Below are positions 1 through 9,324 of a stretch of 9,324 nucleotides of DNA, piece after piece. How positions within the stretch are numbered: position 1 is the stretch's first letter; every line of letters starts with the position of its first letter. Both the position numbers and the translations under genes were made by a program. The notes below the pieces were generated by a model. That model was not told the DNA's origin. It was given only the letters and a program-made list of their open reading frames with translations, and did no database searches. Source of the DNA: an uncultured Lachnospiraceae bacterium (GTDB lineage Bacteria; Bacillota_A; Clostridia; Lachnospirales; Lachnospiraceae); NCBI GenBank assembly GCA_902783205.1, contig CACZQE010000278.1, positions 1 to 9,324 on the forward strand, given 5' to 3'.

Positions 1-53
1 ACATGGATTCCGGCAGAGTTAATCCCGTCATCATTCACGATCAAAATCTTCAT
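1..53 (-). CDS. surE: SurE 5'/3'-nucleotidase, N-terminal fragment (cut by window edge)
   Basis: Only the first 17 codons are present; they read MKILIVNDDGINSAGIH. This is the SurE N-terminus: a short beta strand followed by the NDDG metal-binding motif (D8, D9 here), which holds the divalent cation in this family. SurE dephosphorylates nucleoside monophosphates and is linked to stress survival and stationary phase. The ATG at 53 is preceded on the minus strand by GGAGAGGAG about 8 bases upstream, a good ribosome binding site, so the start is well supported. It is divergent from the GntR regulator with a 181-base spacer. Neither its full length nor its operon partners can be seen. Recognition rests on a short but highly characteristic N-terminus. 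Confidence 0.85.
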   Translation of the reverse strand, partial: MKILIVNDDGINSAGIH

Positions 54-168: not shown

Positions 169-234
169 AAAAACACAGGCGGATGGCAGCAGCACGGTAT
201 TTACATAATGATCTCATTTCCGCGGGAGGTATCT

Positions 235-918
235 ATGGCGAAAAAAGACACCCCAATGCTTCAGGTACAGGCTTATGATTACCTGAAGGAACTGATCAAG
301 AACGACGATCTGGATCCGGACAAGTTCTATTCTCTCAACCAGATGGCAAAGGAACACGGATTTTCCAGAACCCCCTTCCGGGACGCGGTCCTGCGGCTGG
401 AGCAGGAACGCTACATCGATATCTATCCCAGCAAAGGCTTCAAGCTTCACGCCATGACCCGTGAAGACATGGTTGAAACCTATCAGATGCGCGGTGCCAT
501 CGAATCATACTGTCTTAAGGAACTGTCCCGGGGACTGGATACGGAGCGCGGACAGCAGTACTATGAAAAGATCACCGGCAAGGTAAGGCTTCAGAGAGAA
601 ATCATGAACACCACCGGAGACCCGGAGGATTTCGGCCGCAAGGATTACGAATTCCACCGCAGTATCGTTCAGTATGTGGGAAACCGGGTCATGCTGGAAA
701 TCTACCGACAGTTCATGTACAGGATATTCTGGCTCAATGTCTCCTCTTTCTCGAGGAAAGGCCGGATGCAGGAAGCCGTGGAAGAACATGAGCGTTTTCT
801 CAGTCTGATCAGGGAAAAAGACCTGGCCGGTCTGGACGACCTGCTCAATCACCATCTGAGCGTACCCAGAGCCATCAACGTGGACCTGGTAGGCACATCC
901 GAAGACAGCCCGGCCTGA
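235..918 (+). CDS. GntR-family transcriptional regulator, FCD subfamily
   Basis: Predicted 227-residue DNA-binding repressor or activator. Residues about 10-75 form the GntR winged helix-turn-helix (core SLNQMAKEHGFSRTPFRDAV at 33-52, then the wing YPSKGFKL). Residues about 78-210 form the all-helical FCD ligand-binding domain. The family's metal-site residues appear present: D137 and H141 in DYEFH, H185 in EEHE, and H206/H207 in NHHL. Length matches the family (220-240). An earlier in-frame ATG at 208 lacks a ribosome site, whereas the ATG at 235 follows GGGAGG at about 5 bases, so 235 is chosen. FCD regulators usually sense small carboxylic acids or sugar acids and control adjacent catabolic genes. 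Here the convergent acid-sugar operon (1554-4665) is the likely target; this is inferred from proximity and from the GTATAC-centred site at 4777-4792. The true effector is not visible. Confidence 0.93.
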   Translation: MAKKDTPMLQVQAYDYLKELIKNDDLDPDKFYSLNQMAKEHGFSRTPFRDAVLRLEQERYIDIYPSKGFKLHAMTREDMVETYQMRGAIESYCLKELSRGLDTERGQQYYEKITGKVRLQREIMNTTGDPEDFGRKDYEFHRSIVQYVGNRVMLEIYRQFMYRIFWLNVSSFSRKGRMQEAVEEHERFLSLIREKDLAGLDDLLNHHLSVPRAINVDLVGTSEDSPA

Positions 919-941
919 TACGGACAATATAAACGGCTACG

Positions 942-1017
942 AGAAAAAGGCGTCGCAGTTATGATTGGCCCATTTTATAAAAATGGGCCAATCATAACTG
1001 CTGACGCCTCTTTTTTT
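942..1017. terminator. Long bidirectional hairpin terminator after the GntR gene
   Basis: Bases 948-976 pair with 980-1009. A 7-base outer stem (AGGCGTC/GACGCCT) is followed by one small internal irregularity at 955/1001-1002 and a 21-base perfect inner stem (956-976 with 980-1000) with a three-base loop ATA. On the plus strand it is followed by CTTTTTTT (1010-1017). On the minus strand the A-run at 944-948 gives a T-run, so it can stop transcription from both sides. The stem of about 28 pairs is much longer than a usual intrinsic terminator. Confidence 0.9.
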
Positions 1018-1116
1018 AATACTTGAACTTTAATTCTGATCATTCCTGTTTAAATGATTTAAAAACCTTTTATGTTGATACCTGCCCCCTTCCCATCATA
1101 GTAATCCTCTTCTTCA

Positions 1117-1384
1117 TTTTTGATGGACGTTCAAGATCGCATGTCATGTATACTTTTGCCTTTAGATACTTTGATGGTACATTTTCCTGATTTTTCATGT
1201 ATAAATCGTGTCATCGTTGTATTTGGTAATATTCTCCACTTTCATTTTCATGGATAGATATGTAGAAGTTTTCTTTTGATGGAAACAGGCAAAATACGTC
1301 ATGTATAAATAAGTATACTTATATTTTGATGGAAGGAATTTTTATATTGTCATGTAAAAATCAACTTTAAATAACGATTGATGG
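1117..1384. repeat. Array of two-box direct repeats with about 51-base period
   Basis: TTGATGG occurs at 1120, 1171, 1276, 1326 and 1378, and a decayed copy TTGGTAA sits at 1223, giving steps of 51, 52, 53, 50 and 52. In each of the first five units a second box follows 23-25 bases after the first: TCATGTATA at 1144, 1195 and 1299, TCATGTAAA at 1350, and decayed TCATGGATA at 1248. Sequence between the boxes (16-18 bases, then 18-19 bases) is not conserved. The last unit has only the first box. The array lies between convergent transcription units, so it is not an ordinary promoter array for either neighbour. Conserved blocks are too short for a normal CRISPR repeat. I do not recognise the element. 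Confidence 0.8.
1309..1322. promoter_or_regulatory. Perfect 14-base palindrome ATAAGTATACTTAT
   Basis: The sequence is identical to its reverse complement and is centred on GTATAC, the same core as the candidate operator at 4777-4792. It lies in the variable part between repeat units four and five of the array. It could be a binding site for the GntR/FCD protein or another dimeric regulator, but its flanks (ATAA/TTAT) differ from the operator's (TACC/GGTA), and there is no promoter nearby to control. Confidence 0.3.
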
Positions 1385-1450
1385 AAAACTTCCCCAGGGA
1401 CAAGAAAAAACCGGCAAAACGCATCACCCCCTGGGAGCTCAAAACACGAA

Positions 1451-1482
1451 GAAAGGGCTGCCGCTTTTGCGACAGCCCTTTC
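1451..1482 (-). terminator. Hairpin at the end of the acid-sugar operon (weak terminator)
   Basis: GAAAGGGCTG (1451-1460) pairs with CAGCCCTTTC (1473-1482). An inner CGC/GCG stem and a four-base loop continue it after one mismatch. It lies 71 bases beyond the stop codon of the last operon gene. On the minus strand it is followed by TTCGTGTTTT rather than a clean T-run, so it may be a weak terminator or a 3' stability structure. The plus strand has no T-run directly after it. Confidence 0.6.
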
Positions 1483-1553
1483 CGGTTACCTTCTCCGTGG
1501 GTTTTCTGATTCCCCGTAACCTTTTATCGACAAATCAAAACTTGTAAGCCTGA

Positions 1554-2240
1554 TTATTCAACTTCTGCGATACATACAACCTGGCTGGAGTCCAGTCCGA
1601 GGATTCTCAGAGGCGCATTGAAGAAACGAACGATCTTTGCGTCTTTGGGCAGCTCGCTCAGATGCATATCCTCAACACCTGTTACGAATTTGCCTGTGTA
1701 GTATCCCAGCATATGACGATGGCAATCCGGCGGGAACTCGCCTTCCGGACAATCCGGAGAAGCGGATCCGATAGCCAGGAAGTCCATACCTACTCCCTTT
1801 AAGTTGGGGAAGTTCTCTGTCAGATAGTCGCCTGCGGAAGGAGCGATGAAAGCGCCCTTGTTCTGGTAGATATCCTGGTTTGTATCTCTGTACTGCTCCA
1901 TACCTGTACGGATCAGAGCGAAGGAAACTTTGGAGAGGATGTCAGCGAAGGGCTCCAGGTCCTCTTTATAGATTCCCTCAACCGGTCCCTTGGGGATCTC
2001 GAGAAGAGCAACCTCTGTATGGCAGAAGTACTCGATTCCGAGCTGGTTGATATCCAGACCGTCTTTTACGAAATGACGCGGAGCATCCATATGTGTTCCG
2101 AAATGGTTGGGCAGAACGGAAACGAAGCTGCAGAAAGGTGTCTCTTCGCAAACGTCTGTGCACTGTTTAATCTCTACTACAGGCTCGCCCGGCCATGCAT
2201 AACCATTGGGATCTAACGGGTGGGATAAAAACATAAACAT
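1554..2240 (-). CDS. Cyclase-family (kynurenine formamidase-like) metal-dependent hydrolase
   Basis: Predicted 228-residue cytoplasmic enzyme of the cyclase family (PF04199). The family signature HxGTHxDxPxH is complete as HFGTHMDAPRHF at residues 46-57, giving metal ligands H46, H50, D52 and H56. Further likely active-site residues are H174/H176 and E190 in the GVEDMHL segment. Known members hydrolyse N-formylkynurenine, isatin and related amides or cyclic compounds, often with Mn or Zn. The start is well fixed by AGGAGG seven bases upstream. It is the last gene of the operon, 94 bases after the kinase. No tryptophan-degradation gene is nearby, so a formamidase role is unlikely; hydrolysis of a lactone, ester or amide of the sugar acid handled by the operon is a guess. 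Family assignment is secure, substrate unknown. Confidence 0.88.
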   Translation of the reverse strand: MFMFLSHPLDPNGYAWPGEPVVEIKQCTDVCEETPFCSFVSVLPNHFGTHMDAPRHFVKDGLDINQLGIEYFCHTEVALLEIPKGPVEGIYKEDLEPFADILSKVSFALIRTGMEQYRDTNQDIYQNKGAFIAPSAGDYLTENFPNLKGVGMDFLAIGSASPDCPEGEFPPDCHRHMLGYYTGKFVTGVEDMHLSELPKDAKIVRFFNAPLRILGLDSSQVVCIAEVE

Positions 2241-2279
2241 AATGTGTCCTCCTTTACTTTAATACATTTTATTCTTTTG

Positions 2280-2318
2280 CCGCTGTCTTCCGGCAGCGGA
2301 TTGCTTCTTTTGCAAAAG
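2280..2318 (-). other. Intercistronic hairpins between kinase and cyclase-family genes
   Basis: CCGCTG (2280-2285) pairs with CAGCGG (2294-2299) around an eight-base loop. Next to it lies the perfect palindrome CTTTTGCAAAAG (2307-2318). The minus-strand sequence downstream of the first hairpin is A-rich, not T-rich, so it is not an intrinsic terminator. It may be an mRNA processing or stability element that sets different levels of the two proteins. The spacer (94 bases) is large compared with the 18-base spacer upstream in the same operon. Confidence 0.45.
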
Positions 2319-2334
2319 TCCCTTCTGGGCTTTC

Positions 2335-3756
2335 CTATTTCATCAGTACTTCCGCTGCTTCTTTAAGGGTGGAGATCTCTCCTACATTTCCGGGGAAGAT
2401 CACATAAGGTGTCAGCGGGAACTTACTTTCATCGCCGGTCTGCCATACCGGGATACCCGGCTTGATCTGACCTAATACATTTGCTTTCTGTACTTTCAGT
2501 GCCTTGGTTCCGACATCGGAGGATGTGATTCCGCCTTTTGCAATAACAAAGCTGGGAACGATCTCAAGTCTGCCGACCAGGGATGCCACTGCGTCGGAAA
2601 TCCTGACGGAGAGACGAAGGTCATCTTCCTTGTCGCCGGTGTCTGCCGTGATCAGGGCCCGGGTCGTGTATACGCAGACGGTCTTTCCGGCCGCGATGCA
2701 CTCTTCTTCCAGCTTGAGGCAGCGGTCTACTTCAGCAGCGAAAGCTTCCTCATCCTTAACCAGGGTGGCATTGAGCTCGATGAACTCTATATCGGGATTC
2801 TCCTTGAGCATTTCCACCTGTTTTGTGGTCTTGTCCGTGTGGGAGCCGACTACGATGATACCGCCGTTGTCTGTCTCTTTAACGACCATCTTTTCTCTTG
2901 TCAGCAGAGGCTGGTCTGTCACGCCGCCCATAACCTTTACTATTCCTGCAGCGGTACGGAACATGAATACCTTGCCCTGTGCCATTGCCCGGTAGAGAGC
3001 CACACAGAAGATCTTTACATCCACGTAATCCACAGCGTTAACGATGATCTTATTGAAATCTTTTACAGCCATCAGCTGCTCAGTAATCTTGTCATAGTTG
3101 AGAGCTCTGATGTCGTCAAGGGATACGGAAGTTACGTCAGCTGCCTTAAATGCGCCGCCTGTCTTCTCCTCTACATATTCCTTGATATCGGATTTGGTGT
3201 ATCCGAATGTCTTGTCTTTTGCGAACTCGGTCTCTGCGGCAGGAACAAGCTCGTCACCGTATTTTACATAATGAATATCATTAATGGTGAAGCGGCCGCC
3301 CTCTTTGAAGAAGGGACACATAACCTCGCCGTCCACCGGCTTTCCTGAAGTGGATTCGATCGCCTCACGGAGCAGGGTGGTCTCCAGGGGATAATGTCCG
3401 CGCAGGGTGGAATCACTTCTGCTGATAAAGATATAGTCGATGCCGGTTTCCTGAGACACCTCTTCAACTACCGCAGCGATTTCCTTGTGGGCTTTGGTTG
3501 TCTCCTCTGCCGTAAACCCTCTTGAGTTTGTCAGTACGTAGAAGACCTTGTTCTCCTCGGCAAAACCTTTCTCGATACTGTCTTTGGACCAGTTGGTGTA
3601 TACGGAAATATCATGGACTGTCTGCACGCCTGTAGGATCGTCGTCCAGAACCACGATCTTCTTGTTATTCTTACGGATCTCTTCCTGAAGAAGGGCATCC
3701 ACTGCCGCCTCGTCAACAGACGGGAATGATTCTAAAATCTTTGCATCAATAGCCAT
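2335..3756 (-). CDS. DUF1537 four-carbon acid sugar kinase family protein
   Basis: Predicted 473-residue cytoplasmic ATP-dependent kinase. The N-terminal sugar-acid-binding domain (about 33-280) has DDDPTG at 38-43 and SRSDSTLRGH at 112-121. The C-terminal nucleotide-binding domain (about 298-470) has GSHT at 304-307, the glycine-rich AKGGITSSD at 406-414 and FPGNVG at 454-459. Length is normal for the family. Characterised members phosphorylate 3-oxo-tetronate (OtnK), D-threonate (DtnK) or 3-oxo-isoapionate (OiaK). The first two products go to an aldolase or dehydrogenase, the last to a RuBisCO-like protein. Here no OtnC-type aldolase, OtnI isomerase or PdxA2 is adjacent, but a RuBisCO-like gene lies at the window's right end. 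The start has AGGAG six bases upstream. It is second in the operon, 18 bases after the dehydrogenase. Family is firm; substrate cannot be read from the sequence. Confidence 0.92.
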   Translation of the reverse strand: MAIDAKILESFPSVDEAAVDALLQEEIRKNNKKIVVLDDDPTGVQTVHDISVYTNWSKDSIEKGFAEENKVFYVLTNSRGFTAEETTKAHKEIAAVVEEVSQETGIDYIFISRSDSTLRGHYPLETTLLREAIESTSGKPVDGEVMCPFFKEGGRFTINDIHYVKYGDELVPAAETEFAKDKTFGYTKSDIKEYVEEKTGGAFKAADVTSVSLDDIRALNYDKITEQLMAVKDFNKIIVNAVDYVDVKIFCVALYRAMAQGKVFMFRTAAGIVKVMGGVTDQPLLTREKMVVKETDNGGIIVVGSHTDKTTKQVEMLKENPDIEFIELNATLVKDEEAFAAEVDRCLKLEEECIAAGKTVCVYTTRALITADTGDKEDDLRLSVRISDAVASLVGRLEIVPSFVIAKGGITSSDVGTKALKVQKANVLGQIKPGIPVWQTGDESKFPLTPYVIFPGNVGEISTLKEAAEVLMK

Positions 3757-3774
3757 ATCTGTCTCCTTCTCCCC

Positions 3775-4665
3775 TCAGTCTACCTTCTTTACCTGCACAT
3801 CTGCCAGTTTCTCAAAGTACTGTACGATTCCGCCGTGGTCGTCGTTCATATGTCCGTGTACTTTCAGTGTCTGCAGGATCTCAAAGAGCTGTGCGGAATA
3901 AGGAATCGGAACGTCCAGTGCGTGTGCCGTATTCACTACGTTCTTGATATCCTTGTGGTTGATGGAAATCTTGCCGCCGGGTACAAAGTTTCTCTCCACG
4001 ATCATGGGGATCTTTGCGTCCAGAACCGCACTGCCTGCCAGTCCGCCCCGGATTGCATTGTATACCTTTACGGGATCTGCTCCTGCCTTTGCTGCCAGTA
4101 CAAATGCCTCGGACACGATAGCGATGGTATTGTTAACGATGATCTGATTAGCAAGTTTTGTAACAGAGCCGCTGCCGCTGCCGCCGATCAGGACTGCGGA
4201 AGATCCCATGATGTCAAAGTAGGGCATCAGCCTGTCAAATGTATCCTGGTCGCCGCCTGCCATAAATGCAAGAGTGCCGTTGATTGCTCCGGGTTCTCCG
4301 CCGGATACGGGGGAATCCACAAATCCTACGCCGATCTCTTTCAGTTTGTCATAGCACTCATTTGACTCTACAGGAGTCACGGAACTCATATCGCAGACAA
4401 CCTTGCCTTCGCTGAGTCCTTCTGCCACGCCGCCCTCGTCAAAAAGAACGCTTTTACAGATGTCACCGTTGGGAAGAATCAGGAAAACAAAGTCGCATTC
4501 TTTACCGATAGTAGCGTAATCGCCCTTCTCTGCGCCCAGAGCGCAAAGCTCATCAACCGCTGCCTGATTCATATCGTTCACCATCAGGCTGACGCCGCCT
4601 TCGATCATGTTCTTTGCCATGGGTTTACCCATGATTCCCAATCCGATAAAACCAACCTTGCTCAT
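3775..4665 (-). CDS. garR: GarR-like 2-hydroxy-3-oxopropionate reductase (3-hydroxyacid dehydrogenase family)
   Basis: Predicted 296-residue NAD(P)H-dependent enzyme of the 3-hydroxyisobutyrate dehydrogenase superfamily, closely resembling E. coli tartronate semialdehyde reductase. The Rossmann dinucleotide motif GFIGLGIMG is at residues 5-13, the substrate-binding SPVSGGEPGA at 118-127, the catalytic lysine K170 with N174 in TKLANQIIVNN, and K238 in the NHKDIKN segment. AIRGGLAGSAVLDAK (204-218) is also a GarR hallmark. An upstream in-frame ATG at 4677 would add MYVF, but the family starts at the (S)KVGFIGLG strand, so 4665 is preferred; the ribosome site (AAAGGCGG) lies between good distances for the two. 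First gene of the operon. GarR reduces tartronate semialdehyde to glycerate, while relatives such as LtnD oxidise sugar acids, and next to a DUF1537 kinase either direction is possible. Symbol given by similarity. Confidence 0.87.
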   Translation of the reverse strand: MSKVGFIGLGIMGKPMAKNMIEGGVSLMVNDMNQAAVDELCALGAEKGDYATIGKECDFVFLILPNGDICKSVLFDEGGVAEGLSEGKVVCDMSSVTPVESNECYDKLKEIGVGFVDSPVSGGEPGAINGTLAFMAGGDQDTFDRLMPYFDIMGSSAVLIGGSGSGSVTKLANQIIVNNTIAIVSEAFVLAAKAGADPVKVYNAIRGGLAGSAVLDAKIPMIVERNFVPGGKISINHKDIKNVVNTAHALDVPIPYSAQLFEILQTLKVHGHMNDDHGGIVQYFEKLADVQVKKVD

Positions 4666-4772
4666 AAAAACATACACCGCCTTTCTAAGTTATTTATATA
4701 TATTTTGTTCCTTAAGTTTCCTTTTTGTGACCTTCACCGGCCCTGTAAATCTCCTGCATTTTTCTTGTCTTT

Positions 4773-6947: not shown

Positions 6948-8435
6948 TCAGTCCCGGTTTTTTCGGATCAGGGAGAGAAAATCATGGAGGATTCTTCCTG
7001 TGACCCCCCAGATCACACCGCCTTCGGTATTATAAAAATACATGGGATTACGCTTTTTTCTCCACCTGTAATCTTTGCCGCCGGGAATCAGTTCATAGGG
7101 GAAGTCTGCTGCCGGTACCGATATCAGCTCCACATCATGTCGGTCCGGTTCATAACCGGCCAGCCGGTCCGCACTGACACGGAAGACATGATCCACCTCT
7201 CCTTCCGAAAATGTTCCCCGGTAATCACGGATCCGGGCCGCAAAGGGCCAGATCAGAGAGCCGCCCGGTCCCAGAACAGGGGAAAGGGGCGCCAGAATTT
7301 CTATCTGGTTTCTGTCAACCAGAAGTTCTTCCATGGTCTCCCGGATCGCCGCCTCCTCGGCAGTCTCCCCTCCTTCTATATGCCCTCCGGGAAAACAGAT
7401 TTCTCCCGGCTGAGCCTTTAAAGCCTCCGATCTCTGTTCGAAAAGTATATCATAAGAGCCGGCTTCTCCCCGGCCGCTTTCTCCGGAAGAAATCAGGGGA
7501 ACCAGGACTGCAGACTCCTTTTTCCTGACTGAGGAGAGGGCATCCCTGTCCCGGGCGAGACTGCGGATCCTGTCCGCCAGGTCTTCTCCTGTGTGCTCTT
7601 TTTTAAAAGTCATGATCATATCGGCTGTCAGGCTCAGCTCTGAAGCTTCCCGCCCGATCTCCCCGGCGGGAACCCAGGCGGCACTGGACAGCTCTTCCCT
7701 GTCCAGATTCACCTGTCCGGATCCGTCCACCCGGCAGAAAAATCCCATAAGCAGGTTGCCGGCAAAGCCCCAGGGCTGGCTGCCGTAATAGCTTATATCC
7801 TTTACCTTAAGGCCGACCTCTTCCATAACCTCTCTTTTTACAGTTTCCTCCACCGTCTCACCGATCTCGCAGAATCCTGCGATCAGGGCATTTCCAGTGT
7901 AGGGCCGCCCTGCATATCTGGTCATGAGAATCCTGTCCTCATCCGTTACCGCAACAATCACGGCCGGCGAGATCACCGGATAAATCTTGTTGCCGCAGGC
8001 AGGGCAGGACAGCATCCGCTCTTTTCCGTCCCGGACCGTCGGGGTTCCGCAGCGGCCGCAGTGGCGGTGGTCCCGGTACCATACGTAAAGGTGCCATGCT
8101 GTCATGCCGGAGAAGGAGAACTCTCTGTCTATGATCCGCCGGAAGATCCGGGTGGAACGATAGACATATCCCTGATCCTTCATTTTTTCTTCACTTATTT
8201 CCCTGTCACCTGTATAGAGATAGTAATTTCTGTCATCTATGCAGAAAAGATAGGTCAGGTCTTCTCCGCCAAACATACCGGCTCTCGGGCAATCCTCAAG
8301 GCTTACCGCCTGTCTGTCTCCCGGATCTTTCACCAGGACCTCATGTCCGGAAAAGACAAAGACCGGATCCTCCTTCTTTGCCGGCACCGGATGGTATTCA
8401 TTATGAAAAACTTTAGGCCATATATCCTGTATCAT
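6948..8435 (-). CDS. NudC-like NADH pyrophosphatase fused to a CoA-pyrophosphatase-like Nudix domain
   Basis: Predicted 495-residue protein, about twice the usual NudC length (about 260). Residues 1-120 are a NudC-type N-terminal region, and C126, C129, C144 and C147 form a four-cysteine zinc ribbon. Nudix domain 1 (about 155-280) has a perfect Nudix box at 187-209 (G-x5-E-x7-REVMEEVGL), followed by SQPWGF at 219-224 where the NADH-specific signature is SQPWPF. Nudix domain 2 (about 305-490) has GEICFPGG at 344-351, a box at 351-373 with RETMEELLV (the usual glycine is leucine) and a late IWGVTGRIL, features of the NudL CoA-pyrophosphatase group. NudC hydrolyses NADH and NAD-capped RNA; NudL-type enzymes cleave CoA. 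The start overlaps the preceding HAD gene by 23 bases, suggesting translational coupling. Whether domain 2 is active is unsettled. Confidence 0.9.
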   Translation of the reverse strand: MIQDIWPKVFHNEYHPVPAKKEDPVFVFSGHEVLVKDPGDRQAVSLEDCPRAGMFGGEDLTYLFCIDDRNYYLYTGDREISEEKMKDQGYVYRSTRIFRRIIDREFSFSGMTAWHLYVWYRDHRHCGRCGTPTVRDGKERMLSCPACGNKIYPVISPAVIVAVTDEDRILMTRYAGRPYTGNALIAGFCEIGETVEETVKREVMEEVGLKVKDISYYGSQPWGFAGNLLMGFFCRVDGSGQVNLDREELSSAAWVPAGEIGREASELSLTADMIMTFKKEHTGEDLADRIRSLARDRDALSSVRKKESAVLVPLISSGESGRGEAGSYDILFEQRSEALKAQPGEICFPGGHIEGGETAEEAAIRETMEELLVDRNQIEILAPLSPVLGPGGSLIWPFAARIRDYRGTFSEGEVDHVFRVSADRLAGYEPDRHDVELISVPAADFPYELIPGGKDYRWRKKRNPMYFYNTEGGVIWGVTGRILHDFLSLIRKNRD

Positions 8436-8988
8436 TATTCTCTCTCCGTCTCCTGATAAGCATTCTGCGGGCCACGTAAAGCCGCAGTTTCTCAGAAAAT
8501 GTCAGTTTCCTTCTGAGAATCTGACCTGCCCGGGCTGCGTGCTCCTCCATAAGACCGCCTTCCATGGGATCTGTCCGAACCCAGCGCCGGTCCATCCCGT
8601 ATCTTTTCCAGCTGTAATCATTATCATCCAGGATCAGGTAGGACTCCGCCTTCTCCGGGACACTCCCCAGATAGAGAAGGATTTCCTCCTCCCTGTGTCC
8701 GTTTCTGAGCTCCGGTGTCTTATCAGAGATCTCCAGGCCGGAAGCCAGGAGCACCCGGTCCATAAAACGGCAGGAGGGGTGTGTCTTATCCGTTTCTCTC
8801 TCCCAGCCGGCCCGCCAGGAAGATGACAGGATAATCCTGACCTCTCCCCCTCCGCTTTCTTCAATGATCCGGGCCAGGACAGCCACACTTTTCTCATTGA
8901 CAGGGGCGTCAGTCACCCGGTCCTCATTCTCCATAAAATAATCCACTGAATTCAGCACACCGTCTATGTCAAGAAAGATATACTTCAT
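8413..8988 (-). CDS. Small HAD-type phosphatase (RNA-repair 'Swiss Army Knife' HAD group)
   Basis: Predicted 191-residue cytoplasmic hydrolase. The HAD motif I FLDIDGVLN is at residues 5-13 (nucleophile D7, acid/base D9), motif II is LSSSWR at 54-59, and an acidic motif LDDND at 120-124 holds the metal. The spacing and the SSSWR motif resemble the compact HAD domain found in Swiss-Army-Knife RNA repair proteins (PF18143-like), without their other domains. The C-terminal 30 residues are strongly basic (RRK, RRMLIRRRR), which could favour nucleic-acid binding. The start follows a modest AGG five bases upstream. It is first in a two-gene unit and overlaps the Nudix gene by 23 bases, so the two products probably work together. 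Substrate is not known from sequence; phosphatase chemistry follows from the motifs. Confidence 0.78.
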   Translation of the reverse strand: MKYIFLDIDGVLNSVDYFMENEDRVTDAPVNEKSVAVLARIIEESGGGEVRIILSSSWRAGWERETDKTHPSCRFMDRVLLASGLEISDKTPELRNGHREEEILLYLGSVPEKAESYLILDDNDYSWKRYGMDRRWVRTDPMEGGLMEEHAARAGQILRRKLTFSEKLRLYVARRMLIRRRRENNDTGYMA

Positions 8989-9123: not shown

Positions 9124-9324
9124 TTAGATTGCGTAAAGATCCTTGCTGTGTGTCTCGCCGTAGATGCCCCATTTCTCAATGGACCATGTAAGCTCGGGAG
9201 AGTTCTTTGCAGCTTCTCTCAGCGGAACATCATTCATGCATGCTGCGATAGCGTCACGGTGAGCCTTAGCGCCTGCTCTCGGTCCCATTCCATGGCCGTG
9301 GATACCTGCGCCTACGCCGAGAAG
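9124..9324 (-). CDS. RuBisCO-like protein, C-terminal fragment (cut by window edge)
   Basis: The last 66 codons of a gene entering from the right. The stretch GAGIHGHGMGPRAGAKAHRD followed by AIAAC (about residues 5-29 of the fragment) aligns without gaps to the phosphate-binding end of RuBisCO large subunits (GGGTLGHPWG...GA.A.R.A...AC), with about half the positions identical. In plant numbering the G403/G404/G405 triplet reads G-A-G here, and the usual GHP is GHG. The tail EKWGIYGETHSKDLYAI resembles RuBisCO-like proteins rather than photosynthetic enzymes. RuBisCO-like proteins act as enolases, isomerases or, in D-apionate pathways, decarboxylases or transcarboxylases of 3-oxo acid phosphates made by a DUF1537 kinase. 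The catalytic lysine region lies outside the window, so the reaction cannot be told. It ends at a UUCG terminator. Confidence 0.85.
   Translation of the reverse strand, partial: LLGVGAGIHGHGMGPRAGAKAHRDAIAACMNDVPLREAAKNSPELTWSIEKWGIYGETHSKDLYAI

Follow-up and report, generated by a model that had tools for sequence, protein, structure and literature searches.

Between two convergent genes of an uncultured Lachnospiraceae bacterium, two 7-base words, TTGATGG and TCATGTA, alternate at nearly constant distances with dissimilar sequence between them. What kind of element is this, and what could have kept the words and their spacing? We refer to the whole stretch that was analysed, 9,324 nucleotides of contig CACZQE010000278.1 (assembly GCA_902783205.1), as the window, and to the two words as boxes B1 and B2. 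A sequence-only reading of the window had offered three guesses for the array: a multi-site binding platform, a set of tandem small RNAs, or a decayed mobile element.

The array in the window and its genomic setting

The alternation of B1 and B2 spans window positions 1120–1384 and comprises four intact units, one decayed unit and a closing B1 box (Table 1). Box positions thus match the earlier claim that four of the first five units are intact, that one is decayed and that the sixth has the first box only; the span given with that claim, 1117–1384, needs a small correction, since the first box begins at 1120. Steps between successive B1 boxes are 51, 105 (two units), 50 and 52, and those between B2 boxes are 51, 53, 51 and 51. 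The pattern B1-N14-20-B2 has four matches in the window, compared with 0 of 200 dinucleotide shuffles having any, and these shuffles, together with the exact boxes, bear out the alternation over six units. Over six core positions, with the decayed unit included, agreement is 0.83 among the six B1 boxes and 0.93 among the five B2 boxes; a value of 1.00 applies to the four units chosen for having both boxes. Agreement of the interiors, again with the decayed unit included, is 0.19 after B1 and 0.33 after B2, against 0.30 expected by chance from base composition, and the interiors of the four intact units alone agree at 0.26. Likeness between the interiors of different units is therefore not above chance, while most boxes and the distance between them are intact.

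Table 1. Positions of the array boxes, neighbouring genes and bordering hairpins in the window
Feature	Position	Strand	Basis
GntR/FCD regulator, upstream neighbour	208..918	+	gene calling and domain search
Long hairpin followed by T run, probable terminator of the GntR gene, 5' border of the extra DNA	944..1019	+	energy −50.4
B1 box, unit 1 (TTGATGG)	1120..1126	+	exact match
B2 box, unit 1 (TCATGTA)	1144..1150	+	exact match
B1 box, unit 2	1171..1177	+	exact match
B2 box, unit 2	1195..1201	+	exact match
Decayed B1 box, unit 3 (TTTGGTA at the expected phase)	1222..1228	+	sequence; matrix score of unit 3, 8.8
Degenerate B2 box, unit 3 (TCATGGA)	1248..1254	+	sequence
B1 box, unit 4	1276..1282	+	exact match
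B2 box, unit 4	1299..1305	+	exact match
B1 box, unit 5	1326..1332	+	exact match
B2 box, unit 5	1350..1356	+	exact match
Closing B1 box without B2	1378..1384	+	exact match
Terminator-like hairpin, cyclase side, 3' border of the extra DNA	1450..1483	−	terminator scan
Cyclase-family protein (PF04199), convergent neighbour	1554..2240	−	gene calling and domain search

Common words in AT-rich DNA could align by chance. Single copies of either box are also present in the window outside the array (B1 at 872 on the − strand and at 3959 on the + strand; B2 at 713), and many genomes contain an isolated two-box match. Against this stand the shuffles, 2,000 first-order resamples of positions 901–1560, of which 0 had two or more hits of at least 15 to the weight matrix described below, and the recurrence of phased arrays in two other genomes, G406 and G133, which refutes chance alignment and leaves it a negligible probability.

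The array lies between a GntR/FCD regulator gene and a gene for a cyclase-family protein, as the sequence-only reading had stated for convergent genes. This setting holds for the window copy and not as a trait of the family: gene order around the arrays, read by eye, is convergent at 2 of 12 loci, and divergent and tandem settings also occur. The long hairpin on the regulator side has perfect arms at 955–976 and 980–1001 and is absent from the output of a simple terminator scan. Forty-three loci encoding relatives of the cyclase were collected, and 18 of these were examined for the gene gap. The same convergent pair is present in seven, with gaps of 34–112 bp compared with 635 bp here, so the array region is extra DNA of this genome; a gain of the array DNA in the window genome is the simplest reading. 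Two more of the 18 loci (L005 and L016) have a gap of about 1.25 kb, and the other nine have the pair in a different order or no regulator that was found. A search of 19 of the 43 loci with profile R1 (see below) returned no array and one weak partial match (L016, E 0.018).

Other genes of the window are recorded here as side observations. An operon-like run on the − strand (1554–4677 and 9124–9324) includes the cyclase-family protein, a protein like D-threonate/3-oxo-tetronate kinases (below the NCBIfam cut-offs), a 2-hydroxy-3-oxopropionate reductase (above the NF008592 cut-off) and, at the window end, the C-terminal end of a RuBisCO-family protein (PF00016). To judge from these assignments, the run is perhaps a pathway of acid-sugar breakdown with a RuBisCO-like protein. 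Also on the − strand, 6948–8435 encodes a 495-aa protein with two NUDIX stretches and an NADH-pyrophosphatase zinc ribbon, apparently a fusion; adjoining it, 8413–8988 encodes a protein with an HAD_SAK_2 domain (the HAD domain of Swiss Army Knife RNA repair proteins).

Arrays of the same build in other genomes

Two other Lachnospiraceae genomes, G406 and G133, carry arrays of this build in several of their intergenic regions. The window genome is distant from both: a 3,465-base query made of two genes matches 158 bases at 68% in each, and additionally matches G133 over 41 bases at 83%. A strict two-unit pattern matched one of 397 Lachnospiraceae genomes, G133, where the match is such an array. 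In the genus of G133 (three genomes), further matches were found in G133 and G406 and none in G405. A relaxed pattern matched 40 of the 397 genomes; matches beyond G133 and G406 were ascribed by eye to histidine-rich coding DNA or chance.

Two profiles were used in wider searches: R1, a sequence-only profile of 19 units, and R2, a profile of 44 units. With R1, 48 of the 397 family genomes had a match at E 0.01 or better and 3 of 116 relatives had one at 0.001 or better, but multiple strong matches were confined to G133 and G406 in both sets; the third of the relatives, G440, had one match. With R2, 6 of 391 genomes of the class had a match at 0.0005 or better, and multiple matches were limited to G406, with one match in each of the other five. 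These genome groups are samples, and the large searches scored 13 or 45 candidates per genome, so that weak or single copies were missed. A profile search of five genomes gave 41 matches in G406, nine in G133 and none in G405, which shares its genus with G133 and G406, or in two relatives of the window, G001 and G009. The 41 matches in G406 include weak singles (C47, C69, C76, C101 and C88:1549), which were left out of the array count. There remain seven loci in G406 (C62, C84, C94, C113, two on C88 and one cut by the end of C88), and in G133 two arrays (C14 and C217), two single units (C267 and C307) and one doubtful copy (C245). The sequence-only reading had proposed searching for recurrence with the same spacing and different interiors, and the arrays in G406 and G133 answer that check positively. 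That the window array belongs to a family of two-box repeats dispersed between genes is well supported.

Because the training alignment of R2, A2, contains window units, R2 matches in the window are not independent. We therefore rely on a two-box weight matrix built from ten arrays of G133 and G406 only, with each array weighted once and the window excluded. Its top four hits in the window are the four intact units, all on the + strand (28.0, 25.3, 24.5 and 15.6); the fifth-best hit scores 14.4. With the scored array left out of training, the ten arrays score between 12.0 and 32.9. Three other sets of sequence stay below 24 throughout: 24 of the 43 cyclase-relative loci (775,986 bases, both strands counted), other G406 contigs (510,138 bases) and viral loci that had been picked for box-like matches (1,187,552 bases; best 23.3). 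The matrix does not respond to arrays alone: of 34 loci chosen as the best single matches of other genomes, three reach at least 24 (best 27.9), never in phase with a second hit, which makes phased repetition the mark of the family. Indeed, none of these 34 loci (L094–L122 and L166–L170), searched over their whole length, has two hits of at least 12 in phase.

Aligned units, compared by eye, give a consensus of about TGATGGWAA for B1 and about TTTCATGTA for B2. Across 44 units in 11 arrays, the distance from B1 to B2 is 25 bp in 40, 24 bp in three and 23 bp in one; the distance from B2 to the next B1 is 27 bp in 37, 26 bp in four and 28 bp in three; and the period is 52 bp in 37, 51 bp in five, 50 bp in one and 53 bp in one. 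The count took as B2 the best match within 20–30 bp, which carries a small bias toward regular spacing. All four short B1-to-B2 distances belong to the window, where four of the five units measure 23 or 24 bp, so phasing looks looser there. Since 37 of 44 steps are exactly 52 bp, the earlier remark that the period is close to five helical turns fits. The 52-bp period is not divisible by three. The decayed window unit 3 is part of the 44-unit count and was left out of alignments A1 and A2, of the intact-unit agreement and of the half-site test, in which B1 and B2 were compared as versions of one half-site (p 0.08 direct, 0.11 inverted); B1 as an inverted form of B2 is thus not significant. Absent from A1, A2 and the 44 units are a contig-edge unit of L088, a doubtful copy (L153) and a 35-bp lead unit of L088A and L090; the last C62 unit, which ends on a degenerate box, belongs to A2 and the matrix training set and stands outside the 44 units.

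The shortest arrays have a single unit and the longest, C62 of G406, at least 13 in succession at 52 bp; GC content across arrays is 0.23–0.38. Arrays close on a lone B1-like box, degenerate in some cases, and several G406 arrays open with B2. In C62 and C84 of G406, adjoining units are often near copies, even alternating in type, and interiors differ between loci. Such near-identical neighbours make it likely that tandem duplication is at work. In the longest array (L150 2814–3553, G406 C62), the second half alternates two interior types, suggesting duplication of a two-unit block.

One array can be compared directly between genomes. Upstream of a gene with PF02579 and FKBP (PF00254) domains, both G406 and G133 carry an array of equal unit number, with 48 of 52 box positions identical, 57 of 108 interior positions and 102 of 109 positions of the gene-side flank, a flank that may itself be constrained as a promoter region. 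At this gene, boxes are kept and interiors change faster than the adjoining flank. A shared 35-bp lead unit, with B1 and without B2, precedes both arrays (L088 and L090), and beyond the far side of the array the two genomes are no longer similar, as would fit an array standing at the border of a rearrangement. Other copies are gained and lost: the C62 array of G406, about 760 bp long and next to the start of a shikimate kinase gene (PF01202), on its upstream side, has no counterpart in the corresponding gap of G133 and G405. The borders of these array-free sites cannot be aligned to the base. On C88 of G406, a small array (L088 4467–4567) has a flavodoxin gene on one side and a PF04199 cyclase gene on the other; the PF04199 family stands beside an array at 2 of 12 loci (the window and L088), which is probably coincidence.

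Known repeat systems and the RNA-level reading

A search of open-licence PMC papers found no description of this two-box repeat family. MIRU of Mycobacterium are dispersed intergenic tandem repeats with a unit about as long as here; MIRU units are conserved over their whole length, whereas two-box arrays are conserved mainly in two short boxes. Conserved blocks of the arrays measure 6–9 bp, and interiors are repeated within C62 and C84 of G406, unlike the long, near-identical repeats and unique spacers of a CRISPR array.

The closest known kind, as far as the sections of its description consulted go, are the STAR elements of Staphylococcus. That source describes a short direct-repeat motif, intergenic and in tandem at about 50 nt, at many loci per genome; spacers that are distinct between loci and often alike within a locus; variable copy number; and locations that differ between species, with function and mode of spread given as unknown (PMC3532100). 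Two-box arrays share the intergenic tandem layout and locus-specific spacers, with seven loci in G406 and a period of 52 bp in 37 of 44 units. By contrast, STAR as described there is one GC-rich 14-bp motif, whereas the arrays have two motifs alternating at a fixed 25 and 27 bp in AT-rich DNA, occur in another bacterial class and have unrelated box sequences. Set against the STAR consensus given in that description, T(G/A/T)TGTTG(G/T)GGCCC(C/A), the aligned units conserve no GGCCC block. Because the motif differs and a second motif stands at a fixed distance, the arrays are not STAR elements, although they are laid out alike. BOX elements of Streptococcus are likewise dispersed repeats with a variable number of tandem inner modules, set between boxA and boxC ends and predicted to form a stem-loop RNA, according to the portions of the account used here (PMC3049150). 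Unlike BOX elements so described, two-box arrays have no common end modules seen by eye, a mean folding z of −0.11 and 0 consensus pairs.

A further likeness is to TIGR arrays, in which two short repeats also alternate with variable stretches between them and the closing repeat is truncated; the passages drawn on give repeats of 8–12 nt, spacers of 9 nt (up to 12) and RNAs of 36 nt (PMC12045711). The layout raises the possibility that the arrays act at the RNA level, with small RNAs released from a transcript by cleavage at the boxes, in the manner of CRISPR or TIGR, and the interiors serving as guides. That window interiors are unlike one another would agree with this. So might the interiors of G406: in 23 of 64, a 12-mer recurs in the remaining G406 sequence (317,070 bases compared), against 17.6 (sd 3.2) for shuffles and 12 for reversed segments; this small excess rests on non-independent segments because the C62 and C84 interiors are near copies, and the guide idea was rejected. 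Near copies are also not the unique spacers that guides would call for, and the 52-bp period and longer free stretches contrast with the spacers and 36-nt RNAs of TIGR as reported in those passages (PMC12045711).

Folding and gene content argue against the RNA-level reading as well. Folding of 21 units gave a mean z of −0.11 on each strand (single units −2.2 to +1.5) and consensus folding of 44 units gave 0 pairs: neither units nor consensus show a sign of RNA structure, which disfavours the earlier guess of tandem small RNAs. A scan of the window against Rfam at gathering thresholds returned nothing. Pfam searches of 20 neighbour genes of the other arrays found no domain of a transposase or recombinase; Nop and Cas domains were likewise found neither in these genes nor in the window's seven complete genes and 3' partial gene; the Nop search left out the partial gene at window 1–50, ORF L150 2221–2658 and ORF L089 3–539. 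The arrays thus differ from TIGR, as far as its description was seen, in spacer length and in having no adjacent Nop-domain Tas gene among the neighbours examined. Overall, an RNA-level role is improbable.

What may recognise the boxes

Genes next to the arrays belong to varied, unrelated families and differ between loci. At 7 of 12 arrays (the doubtful C245 copy included), a terminator-like hairpin of −16 kcal/mol or lower ends within 120 bp upstream on the array strand, a descriptive count with no background rate. A stricter first terminator detector placed a same-strand upstream hairpin at 2 of 12 arrays; it missed long hairpins, and the detector was therefore widened. Beside the array on C84 of G406, a 101-aa frame (L148 1175–1480) matches only an LD-carboxypeptidase C-terminal domain (PF17676) and is perhaps a gene fragment.

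These settings bear on whether the arrays are operators, on which a transcription factor bound to the boxes would control the neighbouring genes. Multi-site operators are common, and a gene starts within a few hundred bases downstream of several arrays, among them L088A, L089, L090 and L148. However, the neighbour genes come from unrelated families, those flanking the window copy are convergent, a strong hairpin precedes 7 of 12 arrays, and at least 13 units would be very long for an operator. We consider an operator array unlikely, if somewhat less so than an RNA-level one.

The main rival to a protein-binding platform is a selfish or neutral dispersed repeat, whose boxes would be recognised by a copying or moving enzyme and whose unit number would change by slippage, with no gain to the host. 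Its patchy distribution (arrays in 2 of 397 family genomes and 1 of 391 class genomes), the array of about 760 bp at the shikimate kinase gene of G406 with none in G133 or G405, and the near copies among adjoining units of C62 and C84 all suit such a repeat. It is less easily squared with the neighbour genes, of which 0 of the 20 searched by profile is a transposase or recombinase and one (L149) encodes a Uma2-type putative endonuclease, or with the lack of common ends or clear target duplication seen by eye. Nor would it lead one to expect that two genomes share the array at the PF02579/FKBP gene, its boxes better kept than its interiors, or that the window array retains most boxes though its interiors are at chance. 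We regard a selfish or neutral repeat as a serious possibility but not the likeliest one. The earlier guess of a decayed mobile element survives in the weak sense of a dispersed repeat, with the neighbour genes, free of transposase and recombinase domains, counting against more than that.

Phage origin was also considered and rejected. The strict pattern matched two viral contigs once each, L044 in an open frame and L045 in what was read as chance, and a looser viral pattern gave 62 stretches with at most three B1 boxes in phase (three stretches, all in open frames). The loose box pattern also matches tandem repeats of 165 bp, mostly in open frame, on two viral contigs, L188 and L202. Comparison with phages and plasmids by blastn returned no match for the G406 C62 array, and for the window no plasmid and one weak 29-base phage match (E 0.04).

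Among the three guesses of the sequence-only reading, the binding platform fares best; the binding itself we infer. Phased binding sites for a putative DNA-binding protein are probably what the arrays provide. To the fuller proposal, a family of dispersed two-box repeats whose boxes contact one or more putative sequence-specific DNA-binding proteins on phased sites, we give about even chances. Kept boxes with interiors at chance point to sequence-specific recognition, and the position of arrays beside unrelated genes in both orientations favours a platform over a promoter operator. Counting against a platform, no candidate binding protein was found, no gene travels with the arrays, and the family is patchy, with no match in G405, G001 or G009. 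Moreover, kept boxes are expected equally if they are recognised by an enzyme that spreads the repeat, and the boxes alone cannot separate a platform from a selfish or neutral repeat.

Each copy repeats a unit of B1, some 18 free bases, B2 and some 20 free bases, and ends with a last B1. If the platform reading is right, the boxes would be contacts for one (or two) putative sequence-specific DNA-binding proteins. The usual distances of 25 and 27 bp add up to a 52-bp step, or five turns at 10.4 bp per turn, which would place B1 boxes on one face of the helix and B2 boxes on another. Copies of the putative protein may then assemble cooperatively along the like-facing boxes, and array length, from one to at least 13 units, would set the number of molecules loaded. 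Length itself may change by tandem duplication, as the near-identical adjoining units in G406 suggest. The role would likely be that of a structural or titrating chromosomal platform and not of a promoter operator.

Two motifs at fixed spacing, with interiors at chance in one array, separate kept from free sequence, and the 52-bp unit with its two boxes offers an exact probe with which to isolate the putative protein. More tentatively, and with the odds rather against it, phased two-box arrays may constitute an undescribed element of chromosomal architecture, on which a putative Lachnospiraceae protein would polymerise along one face of the DNA, with array length setting its load or titration.
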